Below are positions 7,817 through 30,894 of a DNA stretch of 36,650 bases, piece by piece. This stretch comes from Candidatus Methanoperedens sp. (GTDB taxonomy: Archaea; Halobacteriota; Methanosarcinia; Methanosarcinales; Methanoperedenaceae), in NCBI GenBank assembly GCA_026552955.1, contig JAPMTS010000053.1, positions 1 to 36,650 of the forward strand. The letters run 5' to 3'. Position 1 is the stretch's first letter, and the number at the start of each line of letters is the position of its first letter. Both the position numbers and the translations under genes were made by a program. Below the pieces are notes generated by a model that worked only from the letters and a program-made list of their open reading frames with translations, made no database searches and was not told where the DNA came from.

Positions 7817-8779
7817 TTAGATTTTTTCATCTTTCAACAACCGGGCAGCAGCATAAGCCGGAAATACTTTTGATTTTTGGGTCCCATATTTTTCAGAGAT
7901 AAAGATTATCTCAAGACCAGATTCAGTTACTGCATTTCTTGCCACGAATTCTCCCAGGCCGCATGCCACGATCTTTTTAATACCATGCCTTTTGGATATT
8001 TCATGAATTGCAGCCCTGATATCACTGACCTGTGCATCCATAACCTGTCTTGCGATCGAAAAGACCTCGTCCTTTCTTATTTCACTCAAATCTGCGCAAA
8101 CCACGCGGGCAAGTCTTCTTTTTGCATCAATCAATGTTTTCCCGGCGCCATCCGGTGTGTCGCATGTATAATTCTCCTGTTCTATTAATCCAAGAACAAT
8201 GTACGCATCAGCGGTAATTGCAAATAGTTCAGAAGAAATCCGTGATTCCGTATTCCCGAATTTTACCCTTTTCAATATTGCCGCAATATTTGTCCGCAGC
8301 GCCCCTGAATACACAAGTTCTCCATTTTTTAGACGTTTGAAATCCGTTTTAGATGCAAGAGGTTTGCCATTTTTGATAGGAATTATATCCGTTGTTGTTG
8401 AACCGATATCAACGAATATGCAATCCCTGTATTCTTTTCCCAATAGAAGCGAAGAAGCCATCCAATTGGCTGCCGCAATGCTGCGCTTTTTCTCTTTTAT
8501 GAGGGTGCCGTCATTATCCAGAAAATAAGCATTTGTAAAGGCATTATTGACCGCATCAATGATATACGAAAGACCTGCATCCTTATCCGGAAAACAATCA
8601 GCCAGTTCTCCTGTTATGACCACCGCTACTTTATCAGGCTTCAGACGCTGTGCAATTTCAAGCAGCATCCCCGGCAGCTTTGTGTTCTTCCAGAGGGGGA
8701 TATAATGCAGTTCAACTATTTTACCATCATCAGAAGCTATTTTTGTGTTCGCTCCACCAATATCGATACCAAGGATCAT
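7817..8779 (-). CDS. mfnF: MfnF-like methanofuran synthase (hydantoinase/oxoprolinase fold)
   Basis: A 320-residue protein of the actin-like ATPase fold family annotated as H4MPT-linked C1 transfer pathway protein. Seen: phosphate-binding loop GIDIGGANTK at residues 4-13, the family signature ITGELADCF near residue 55, a second phosphate loop FVDIGSTTTDIIPI near 120, and ACGLGEFVARNA near the C-terminus. The Methanocaldococcus homologue MJ0840 (MfnF) joins the furan pyrophosphate to gamma-glutamyltyramine to make the methanofuran core, so this gene implies a methanofuran-using organism. It converges with the DUF4349 gene and no other methanofuran genes are nearby. The exact function rests on family resemblance. 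Confidence 0.8.
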   Translation of the reverse strand: MILGIDIGGANTKIASDDGKIVELHYIPLWKNTKLPGMLLEIAQRLKPDKVAVVITGELADCFPDKDAGLSYIIDAVNNAFTNAYFLDNDGTLIKEKKRSIAAANWMASSLLLGKEYRDCIFVDIGSTTTDIIPIKNGKPLASKTDFKRLKNGELVYSGALRTNIAAILKRVKFGNTESRISSELFAITADAYIVLGLIEQENYTCDTPDGAGKTLIDAKRRLARVVCADLSEIRKDEVFSIARQVMDAQVSDIRAAIHEISKRHGIKKIVACGLGEFVARNAVTESGLEIIFISEKYGTQKSKVFPAYAAARLLKDEKI

Positions 8780-24848: not shown

Positions 24849-25037
24849 TTATGAGGCAGTCTTTTGCCTATCAGACTTTTGAACGATGAAATAAACGCAC
24901 CCCATCAGACCTATTAATGCAGAAAGTGTGAGCAATAAGAGGGATGAATTTTTATAGAATTCAATTGCGATACTTGTTCCTATTGACATGGCTATTGGCA
25001 TTGAAAAACTTAATAGGGTAAAACTTTTGGAAACCAT
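24849..25037 (-). CDS. small two-helix membrane protein under an operator-rich promoter
   Basis: A 62-residue protein starting MVSKSFTLLSF with two hydrophobic helices (about 8-25 and 33-53) and a charged tail. The frame extends to 25058, but AGGTGA at 25043-25048 places the start at the ATG at 25037. A TATA element on this strand (about 25104-25113) predicts a transcript start near 25082. Two related palindromes flank that TATA, so expression is likely controlled tightly. No family is recognised. Confidence 0.6.
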   Translation of the reverse strand: MVSKSFTLLSFSMPIAMSIGTSIAIEFYKNSSLLLLTLSALIGLMGCVYFIVQKSDRQKTAS

Positions 25038-25067: not shown

Positions 25068-25082
25068 GTGCAAAATTTGCAC
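25068..25082 (-). promoter_or_regulatory. perfect 15-bp palindromic operator at the start site
   Basis: GTGCAAAATTTGCAC is a perfect palindrome around a central A. It covers the predicted transcript start of the two-helix membrane protein gene, a typical archaeal repressor position. Confidence 0.55.
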
Positions 25083-25117
25083 ATAACTATGATTGGTATA
25101 TGAAGTATATAAGTATT

Positions 25118-25132
25118 TCGCAATATTTGCAC
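25118..25132 (-). promoter_or_regulatory. second operator-like site upstream of the TATA box
   Basis: TCGCAATATTTGCAC matches the 25068-25082 palindrome at 12 of 15 positions and lies five bases upstream of the TATA element, with 50 bp between site centres. A close relative occurs upstream of the winged-helix gene (30377-30389). Confidence 0.5.
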
Positions 25133-25304: not shown

Positions 25305-26294
25305 CTACTTTTGTATAACTATCTCCCAATCCTTCTTATTGATCTGTTTCACGATCAATACTTTATGTCCGTCTGCTTCCATTCCTCTTGGCACTTCGGT
25401 AACCGCCAGGGGATCATCCACGATTATCTTCAGGATCTTCCCATCCTCCAGATTATGTAATGCCTGTTTAGCATATACAAAATTATAGGGGCACATTTTT
25501 CCTTTGAGATTTTCTTCCGAATCAATTTTCAAATCAGGTGAGAAAATCCCGTTTATATATGCCCGTGTCCTCTCTTCCTTCGGATTCTCAAATACTTCGT
25601 TTGCAAGGCCGTGTTCAACAAGCTCTCCAAGGTACAGATGAATAACATAGTCGGCAAGCCTCATAGCCTGGTGGATATTGTGGGTAACTATCACTATAGT
25701 ATAATCTTTCTTGAGTTTCAGGAGCTGCTGCTCGATATGCTGTGAAGAGACAGGGTCAAGTGCGGATGTAGGCTCATCGCACAGGATAATTTCAGGTTCA
25801 ACTGCAAGCCCTCTTGCCAGACACAGTCTTTGCTGTTGTCCCAGGGATAATTGCGAGGCTGGAGAGTTTAATCTGCCTTTGACTTCCTCCCATAGACCAA
25901 CCAGTTTCAGGTATTTCTCGACAATAGCATCAAGATCGGATTTTTTCTTTGTTCCATGGATTTTTGGCCCATATGCAATATTTTCATAGATCGACATAGG
26001 AAGCGGAATAGGTTTCTGGGCAAGCAATCCCATTTTTTTCCTGATGTTCACGATATCTGTTTTCCTGGCAAAGATATCTTCATTGTCTATCAGGATCTTT
26101 CCTGAATAGGTAACTCCATCTGTAAGATCAATAAGCCTGTTCATGCATTTAAGCAAAGTAGATTTACCGCACCCGGATGGGCCGATAATAGCAGTGATCT
26201 GTTTTTTTTGGATTTTAACAGATATGTTCTTTAATGCATGGTTCCCGTTGTAATATGCATTCACATTATCAATTTCAATATGGATTTCTGACAT
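25305..26294 (-). CDS. pstB: PstB phosphate-type ABC transporter ATPase with a C-terminal TusA-like domain
   Basis: A 329-residue ATPase. Residues 1-255 are a standard PstB: Walker A GPSGCGKST (38-46), Q-loop AQKPIPLPMSIYENIAYG (92-109), signature LSLGQQQR (149-156; the second position is usually G), Walker B ILCDEPTSALD (170-180) and H-loop H205. PstB normally ends there, but here residues 266-329 add a second domain: C268 in MCPYN, an ALHNLEDGKILKI stretch, DDPLAVTEVPR and ADGHKVL, the TusA/SirA pattern with its conserved cysteine. The second proline of the classic CPxP motif is asparagine. AGGTG overlapping the pstA stop places the start at 26294. The ATPase should energise uptake; the extra domain suggests sulfur handling or thiol-based regulation (inference). 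Confidence 0.93.
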   Translation of the reverse strand: MSEIHIEIDNVNAYYNGNHALKNISVKIQKKQITAIIGPSGCGKSTLLKCMNRLIDLTDGVTYSGKILIDNEDIFARKTDIVNIRKKMGLLAQKPIPLPMSIYENIAYGPKIHGTKKKSDLDAIVEKYLKLVGLWEEVKGRLNSPASQLSLGQQQRLCLARGLAVEPEIILCDEPTSALDPVSSQHIEQQLLKLKKDYTIVIVTHNIHQAMRLADYVIHLYLGELVEHGLANEVFENPKEERTRAYINGIFSPDLKIDSEENLKGKMCPYNFVYAKQALHNLEDGKILKIIVDDPLAVTEVPRGMEADGHKVLIVKQINKKDWEIVIQK

Positions 26295-26303
26295 TTCATG
26301 CAC

Positions 26304-29109: not shown

Positions 29110-29436
29110 TAATCCCACCTCGAATTTCTTAATATACTTTCCTGGTTTTTCAGGAAATCCCGGATTTGAATAAATTCCTCGCTATGTTCAATATATCTTT
29201 TCATTTTATTGCTGTTATCAATAACAGCAAAGACGATTCCTTCTTAAATTCATGTTTGATTCACCTGCTTATAAAATAAGCAGCTGCAAATAAGCAGGAA
29301 CATATAAGAATGCACAGAAACCGGCGATAATTGTTGCGATGATTACAGAAATGTAATGGTTACGGCAATATTTGCCACAATACTTACAAATGTCGAATAA
29401 AATTGTGAATCGCATGAGATGTGAAATCCCATGCGC
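29110..29436. promoter_or_regulatory. palindrome-rich leader and promoter region of pst
   Basis: No gene is visible in about 327 bases, but several inverted repeats are. TTTCCTG/CAGGAAA forms a stem at 29138-29157 in the leader. TTGCTGTTAT-CA-ATAACAGCAA is a perfect 22-bp palindrome at 29209-29230, just upstream of an AT-rich TATA candidate (29189-29199, minus strand). CCTGCTTAT (29264-29272) pairs with ATAAGCAGG (29290-29298), and ATAAGCAG repeats directly at 29276 and 29290. GGCAATATTTGCC at 29364-29376 is related to the operator sites at 25118 and 30377. Such a layout is expected for a regulated uptake operon. Confidence 0.55.
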
Positions 29437-30031: not shown

Positions 30032-30322
30032 TCATTTTATATGATACAGGCACTGTCTAGCATCCTGGAAATATTCACGTTCTTCCAAAATATCTTCTTG
30101 TTTTAATCTATTTAAGGCATAGCGCACTGTTCTTGTTGGAAGACGGGCAACCTTTGTTATCTCTTTTTGTGTCAGTGGCCCATGGTTTCCAAGTATATTA
30201 AGAATAAGTTTCATCGAAGGTGAGAATCCTTCGATCTTAACAGAACTGTAATTTTCCAATCCTTTACCTGGAATGCCTGTATCCGTCAAATTTAACCCTT
30301 CTCCTGATAAAATATTCCTCAT
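30032..30322 (-). CDS. winged-helix transcription regulator
   Basis: A 96-residue protein with a MarR-like winged helix in residues 35-95: a first helix SMKLILNILGNHG, then PLTQKEITKVARLPTRTVRY (the HTH) and RLKQEDILEERE into the wing. The N-terminal 34 residues look disordered. GTGATC sits six bases before the ATG at 30322. A TATA element at about 30360-30371 and an operator-like site six bases upstream of it (30377-30389) suggest autoregulation. It is close to a set of small genes and could control them. Confidence 0.82.
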   Translation of the reverse strand: MRNILSGEGLNLTDTGIPGKGLENYSSVKIEGFSPSMKLILNILGNHGPLTQKEITKVARLPTRTVRYALNRLKQEDILEEREYFQDARQCLYHIK

Positions 30323-30376: not shown

Positions 30377-30389
30377 GGCAAATATTGTC
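30377..30389 (-). promoter_or_regulatory. operator-like palindrome upstream of the winged-helix gene
   Basis: GGCAAATATTGTC differs at one position from the reverse complement of 29364-29376 (GGCAAATATTGCC). It lies six bases before the TATA element of the winged-helix gene. A CGAAATA tail follows it; the same tail follows the 25118-25132 site on the other strand. Confidence 0.45.
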
Positions 30390-30485: not shown

Positions 30486-30894
30486 ATGTTCAATCAAAGA
30501 AGGGATCGTTTTTGCCATCCATAACAAATGGAAAGGCGAAGTATCAGAAATAGATGAGAATACACAAGAAATACAAGGAGAATCGCCATATGAAAACTAT
30601 GCAAAGGAAAGGTTGGCAAGGCCGGAATTCCATCGAATAAGGATTGGGCTTGAAAGATTAAGGCGCTCGCTTTCGACAATAGCAGGAAGCTGGCAACGCA
30701 CAGGCAGGCAGCATACACAAACAGAACTTGGAAACATTCTTAGTCGCCAGCATGAGATCGAAAATGAAGCGGAAAATATCGAAGATATGTACCTGCGTGA
30801 ATATATCTACGAACAGCTCGATATAGCATCTTGCGCAAGACGATCTTTAGCGCAAGATGTGAGATGGGATATCCAGGCCAGTAAGAGGTACTAA
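30486..30894 (+). pseudogene. unknown gene with an apparent one-base frameshift near its start
   Basis: The ATG at 30486 has GAGGT (30473-30477) at good spacing and a TATA element at about 30457-30468, but its frame stops within 13 codons. The +1 frame is open for about 130 codons to 30894, reads as protein (KEGIVFAIHNKWKGEVSEID, later RARPEF-like basic helices) and has no ATG until well inside; TTG at 30613 is the first possible start. Removing one A from the AAA at 30495-30498 restores a 135-residue protein. It is mostly helical and charged, with no recognised domain. Either the gene is broken or one base is in error. Confidence 0.5.

Follow-up and report, generated by a model that had tools for sequence, protein, structure and literature searches.

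Two palindromes that enclose the TATA box of a small Methanoperedens gene, at positions 25068-25132 of the window (the whole stretch of 36,650 nucleotides that was analysed), are probably the paired operator of one dimeric DNA-binding regulator, most likely a repressor, that would control a small regulon in this genus. The pair itself is real and lies far above chance. An earlier note had placed this promoter, together with those of pst and of a winged-helix gene, under a single regulator. The part of that proposal concerning the two palindromes has stood, as they look like one paired operator round a TATA box that recurs at other promoters, whereas these other promoters are not those of pst or of the winged-helix gene.

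The proposed operator pair and the gene it precedes

The four sites listed in the earlier note (A to D in what follows) are all located where it had put them, the centres of A and B being 50 bp apart, and the decoy GCAATATTTGTC that it had reported in mfnF is indeed present at 8283. On the minus strand, in the direction of the gene served, the order of the elements is TT-GTGCAAATATTGC-GAAATA-CTTATATAC-22 nt-GTGCAAATTTTGCAC, followed by a gene of 62 codons. Operator 1 (site B, GTGCAAATATTGC(GA), 25118..25132, minus; the checked coordinates 25118-25132 read TCGCAATATTTGCAC on the plus strand and GTGCAAATATTGCGA on the minus strand) stands directly 5' of the putative BRE, GAAATA (25114..25119, minus), and this in turn precedes the TATA box CTTATATAC (25105..25113, minus), an order that would agree with the known layout of archaeal promoters. 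The CGAAATA at site B sits between operator and TATA box, which is the place of a BRE, and GAAATA is the probable BRE from which this flank derives. Transcription is predicted to start about 25 nt below the centre of the TATA box, in the region 25081..25085 (minus). Operator 2 (site A, GTGCAAATTTTGCAC, minus; GTGCAAAATTTGCAC at 25068-25082), a perfect dyad, lies at this predicted start, 50 bp below operator 1. In general form the layout thus reads GTGCA-N5-TGC, 6 nt, TATA, and then, 50 bp on from the first element, GTGCAA-N3-TTGCAC.

A 12/12 match to GTGCAAN3TTGCAC was obtained in none of 300 dinucleotide shuffles of the window, and the same holds for the pair. The window has four matches of 10/12 or better against a shuffle mean of 1.36, and GCAAN3TTGC occurs four times against a mean of 0.89, a count of four being reached in 2 of the 300 shuffles. 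In the 2,480,714 bases (2.48 Mb) of the genome, the perfect GTGCAAN3TTGCAC is found at two places only, site A and C54:5933, each with a partner 50 bp upstream. The looser GTGCAAN3TTGC yields 20 strand matches in this genome, corresponding to 18 distinct places. The earlier note had proposed that a motif as frequent inside genes as in promoters would be a chance occurrence. For the single motif in its own genome this objection holds, because 12 of the 18 places are within ORFs of at least 100 aa; the spaced pair, however, is promoter-specific, as four of the six places outside such ORFs are the two pairs. Among 31 genomes of the genus we counted 25 single perfect palindromes. Fifteen are inside ORFs of 100 aa or longer, a further one belongs to a degraded RhuM-like remnant, and the position of the other nine is promoter-like. 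Several genes or gene remnants that look RhuM-like by eye (L258, L259, L269, L271 and L272) contain TATGTGCAAAATTTGCACATA or a near copy; this dyad belongs to coding sequence or its remnant and inflates the genome counts of the motif.

The gene served (24849..25037, minus) encodes a 62-aa protein that starts with MVSK, as do the relatives recovered, and is preceded by AAGGTGA; a longer ORF gives a 69-aa reading from 25058. Judged by its hydrophobic sequence the 62-aa product is a putative membrane protein, with no Pfam match above the cut-off and no NCBIfam match. The family was found in 33 of the 119 genomes searched, and at no fewer than seven loci its gene follows that of a large membrane protein, the one tested being T2SSF (ArlJ/pilus platform type). 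In the window genome the same promoter also precedes a truncated version of the gene (C54:5883-5947), and the relative G019 (FeB_1) carries this copy at the same place, with the same neighbours and the same early stop. Both palindromes are kept in the window, C54 and G019 promoters, and the letters between the TATA box and the second palindrome vary. The truncated copy (L036:5960-6076, and L080 in G019) comprises some 30 codons behind an intact operator pair, with the same stop in two species, and may represent either a decayed gene or a gene for a short peptide. The other copies of the small gene that were read (C5 in the window genome, and some in relatives) have different upstream repeats, TGTGA-like by eye, and the search for the pair in 298 genomes gave no match at these copies. 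At 17 loci (L049-L061, L069, L070, L078 and L079) the small gene and a gene of about 345 aa that starts with MS(V/I)RKNISLE are divergently oriented, with TGTGA-type repeats, by eye, between the two; the one ~345-aa gene tested had no Pfam match.

Recurrence and conservation of the 50-bp pair

A search for the pair in 298 related genomes, in which the gap could take any length from 25 to 55 nt, gave matches in 10 of them; with the reversed control, G176 was the sole genome to score (7 per strand). Five genomes of the genus have an exact 50-bp step, at six places in all (two in G000, one each in G002, G003, G018 and G019); the other five genomes show five other spacings, and one of them, G015, belongs to the same genus. 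In a scan of a collection of 84,980 species, with the gap free at 27-47, 52 stretches were recovered, which fall into 18 classes by spacing. A 50-bp step is seen in five stretches, four from the genus Methanoperedens and one a Methanomicrobium pair without a TATA box between its halves, and none of the remaining 47 stretches is titled Methanoperedens. The 53-bp and 42-bp classes, with seven and six stretches, are larger and consist of other organisms throughout, so that what matters is the link of the 50-bp spacing to the genus rather than how many stretches the class contains.

A pattern of operator 1 plus TATA returned 33 rows (32 places) in 23 of 149 genomes, versus three for the reversed control. 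Eight of these rows are regulon promoters with an identical 27-nt layout, three of them new relative to the search for the pair. The inspection covered 11 rows, namely these eight plus L277, L283 and L288; some of the other 22 have the same 27-nt spacing (e.g. in G026, G097, G102 and G081), and the regulon therefore counts at least nine promoters. The window promoter belongs to it as well and escapes the pattern because its TATA box starts with C. The nine promoters are found in five genomes, before the window gene, two truncated homologues, three DUF5371 genes (G002, G003 and G018; proteins of 88-97 aa), one receiver-domain gene (PF00072; G002) and two copies of a gene for a short FWKQGGI protein (G000 and G003), for which no Pfam match was obtained. 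In a gap-free alignment of the nine, operator 1 and the TATA box are at fixed offsets and operator 1 is always preceded by TT. The second site follows at +50 in eight promoters and at +51 in one. It scores 12/12 in six of them and 10/12 in three (those of the receiver-domain gene and the two short-protein genes), and the promoter with the 51-bp step is one of these three.

The conservation is concentrated on the operators. In the six exact pairs the pairwise identity is 1.00 at the operator positions, all 22 specified ones (10/10 and 12/12) being invariant, compared to 0.59 in the spacer, 0.44 in the N3 of operator 2, 0.64 in the BRE and 0.86 in the TATA box. A dyad symmetry under selection, as seen in the 22 invariant positions versus the spacer, and a fixed position relative to BRE and TATA, as seen in the nine promoters, are both properties of an archaeal repressor operator. 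The six pairs do not represent six independent origins, because they fall into two promoter lineages, and since AT-rich letters are common to the spacers, part of the likeness may be plain common descent. One could go further and propose that the promoter cassette was copied recently, the likeness being the result of duplication and the palindromes having no function. Indeed, over some 200 bp that include the start of the gene, identity to the window is 81% for the C54 copy and 85% for the G019 copy, and the DUF5371 units have different neighbours in G002/G018 and in G003. Nevertheless, the same layout stands before unrelated genes, and invariant operators combined with a drifting spacer and N3 fit the prediction of an operator pair and not of plain copying, which leaves the latter very improbable. 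An origin from a mobile element was rejected: although 32 stretches in a collection of viral contigs match a loose form of the pair (by match count alone), the strict pair-plus-TATA pattern has no match in that collection.

Sites C and D and the candidate regulators

Site C (GGCAATATTTGCC, 29364..29376, no strand assigned), upstream of pst, is outside the regulon. Of 20 orthologous regions upstream of pst (21 rows less G016, which was dropped as not homologous there), 3 retain its dyad GGCAA-N3-TTGCC, a result by which C is ruled out as a third operator. In the same comparison TTGCCGCAA, which is inside a longer block upstream of pst, is kept in 16 of the 20 regions, the window being an exception with TTGCCGTAA. 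As a separate observation, conservation within the genus is unusually high over the approximately 260 nt upstream of pstS (29119-29376, minus), which include a block TTTTGCCGCAATnATTCnGTTTTTGTAATCA a long way upstream of the TATA box, and PstB (25305-26303, minus) carries a C-terminal TusA (sulfurtransferase) domain at residues 265-332.

Site D (GGCAAATATTGTC, 30377..30389, no strand assigned) is the form taken in the window by another conserved element, GACAATAATTGCC, of the winged-helix promoter. Nine of the 12 orthologous promoters fetched were compared (L308, L314 and L316 were excluded, as their starts or upstream regions are not comparable). The element GACAATAATTGCC is exact in six of the nine, the window differing by one base, and GTGCA-N5-TGC is present in none of them, so that D cannot be regarded as the same operator. 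The CGAAATA flank that was thought to join B and D does not do so: it is kept in 3 of the 9 orthologous promoters, and at D it is on the far side from the TATA box of the gene, unlike at B, where it takes the place of the BRE. The GTGCA/TGCAC arms are absent from both C and D, and what is common to all four sites is, by eye, CAA-N3-TTG.

It is this common core, together with the MarR-type HTH (Pfam HTH_24/MarR_2) of the winged-helix protein (30032..30322, minus), that would favour the proposal of the earlier note that this protein binds A to D and controls all these promoters. The distribution of the protein and the conserved form of site D nevertheless led us to reject it as common regulator. 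A close match (at least 68% identity) was found in 3 of the 5 genus genomes with the pair versus 8 of the 26 without it (P = 0.23), and is missing in the pair carriers G002 (93% complete) and G018 (84% complete). A close match to the protein is thus not found wherever the operator is, its own promoter has the operator sequence in none of the nine orthologues, D is a different element and the dyad of C is not conserved; a role in binding all four sites is exceedingly unlikely.

A leader common to several genes was also observed. It consists of ATG plus AAGAAGGRATCGTYTTTGC and occurs in the window at 29227-29245 (minus) and 30497-30515 (plus), and also in L308, L306, L307, L309-L311, L315 and others of L325-L347. 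It precedes three unrelated kinds of gene, namely a short ORF before pstS, an ORF of about 130 aa next to the winged-helix gene, and a paralogue of the latter. Twenty-five distinct cases, chosen because they have the ATG, were compared: the frame of this ATG ends after 10-17 codons and is followed by an open +1 frame of 36-134 codons, which begins with GIVFA in 24 cases and with GIDFA in one. In the two window cases no start codon was seen by eye before GIVFA in the +1 frame, and the arrangement would point to an unusual start or to programmed +1 frameshifting.

The long-form DUF5371 protein is a possible though doubtful candidate for the regulator, which would then repress its own gene via the pair in three genomes and the window gene via the same sites. 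DUF5371 genes stand behind 3 of the 9 promoters, and the long form is present in all 5 genus genomes with the pair versus 4 of the 26 without it (P = 0.00074, ignoring phylogeny). Moreover, the C-terminal part has, as read from sequence, the strand-helix-helix look of ribbon-helix-helix repressors, and one of 10 members weakly matches the Pfam family PSK_trans_fac ('Rv0623-like transcription factor'; E 0.057). Presence wherever the operator is found is however not accompanied by autoregulation in all members: GTGCA-N5-TGC occurs at 3 of the 10 long-form genes compared, and those of the window genome, at C5:214078-214356, and of G019 have no such site of their own. In addition, 25 of the 34 upstream regions compared for short DUF5371 genes have ATnATnATnAT close to the start, against a mean of 0.9 in shuffles, and the VHVQS strand is nearly the same despite this different repeat, an indication that the family binds a different target. 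A single-sequence AlphaFold2 model showed helices only (pLDDT 65, pTM 0.25), and a comparison with PDB sequences gave no significant match. Because the long genes of the window genome and G019 lack the site and the short genes carry another repeat, the DUF5371 family may recognise something different and DUF5371 may be no more than a target. The ATnATnATnAT of the short genes (L126-L168 and other loci) is a probable operator of their own. In the viral contigs 48 stretches match a DUF5371 peptide pattern, none of them confirmed, and no mention of DUF5371 was found in the literature searched, in which subscription papers are sparsely covered.

Proposed mechanism and relation to known archaeal systems

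The sites themselves, their fixed geometry, the four kinds of gene that they precede and the selective conservation of the dyads suggest that one dimeric regulator would bind both palindromes. Its putative regulon comprises short genes in five Methanoperedens genomes; their products are a membrane-type protein of small size, DUF5371 proteins, a receiver domain that stands alone and an uncharacterised short protein. With operator 1 next to the BRE and operator 2 over the predicted start, simultaneous occupancy would most simply repress, the entry of TFB/TBP and the placement of the polymerase both being blocked. The step of 50 bp is slightly less than five helical turns, so that contact between the two dimers across a bent core would be possible, and such contact might strengthen the repression. 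A role of operator 2 as hairpin at the 5' end of the mRNA was set aside, because operator 1 has the same letters and, being upstream of the TATA box, would not be transcribed from it.

Dyad operators that overlap the start or the TATA box are known from the archaeal repressors MDR1, NrpR and the Lrp-type proteins, although their sequences and spacing differ from those of the Methanoperedens pair. As a rule, archaeal repressors block TFB/TBP or the polymerase from sites over the promoter or the start, whereas activators typically bind upstream of the BRE, according to the accessible part of the source (PMC5512572). By this rule operator 1 might be read as the site of an activator and operator 2 as an autonomous down-regulator, the net effect depending on occupancy. 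In the accessible text on EarA and the Methanococcus fla operon, the EarA sites are likewise immediately upstream of the BRE; there are, however, four of them, each of 6 bp and all upstream, whereas in Methanoperedens dyads are present on both sides of the core (PMC5512572). A further parallel with the fla operon is that elsewhere members of the window-gene family follow a gene of T2SSF type, as judged from the one tested at the loci mentioned above. Nevertheless, an activator at operator 1 is unlikely, as the same sequence at a fixed spacing would be more natural for one cooperative repressor.

Cooperative repression from more than one site does have counterparts among archaeal viruses. The small dimeric RHH regulators SvtR, AvtR, F55 and E73 are described, in the accessible part of the source, as binding multiple sites cooperatively and have been proposed to hinder the use of BRE and TATA; SvtR and AvtR were proposed to oligomerise along the DNA from distal sites, whereas the Methanoperedens pair consists of two fixed sites (PMC5569661). 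The nearest described case that we found concerns the early promoters of rudiviruses and their relatives (Aca8 and other regulators), where, as far as the accessible text goes, a conserved sequence round BRE and TATA is common to otherwise unrelated small genes, and where some versions have inverted repeats overlapping the BRE that were taken as repressor sites (PMC11065993). The likeness lies in a regulatory sequence at the BRE/TATA of unrelated small genes. In contrast to the viral case, the Methanoperedens promoters are on chromosomes or chromosome-like contigs and have a pair of separate dyads that lie clear of the BRE, with a fixed step of 50 bp. It is conceivable, though we regard it as improbable, that the pair defines a new regulon and a new class of archaeal repressor, in which the 50-bp pair travels between chromosomal sites as a single-gene promoter cassette and changes the small gene that it drives (membrane-type, DUF5371 or receiver), with a logic like that of the shared early promoters of archaeal viruses.

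No paper that combines Methanoperedens with promoters, the TATA box and transcriptional regulators was found, in a search with sparse coverage of subscription papers, and it seems that few studies have addressed gene regulation in anaerobic methane oxidisers. With nine natural variants, this defined operator provides a bait for finding the regulator, and the pair would offer a clean case of two operators that enclose the archaeal pre-initiation complex.
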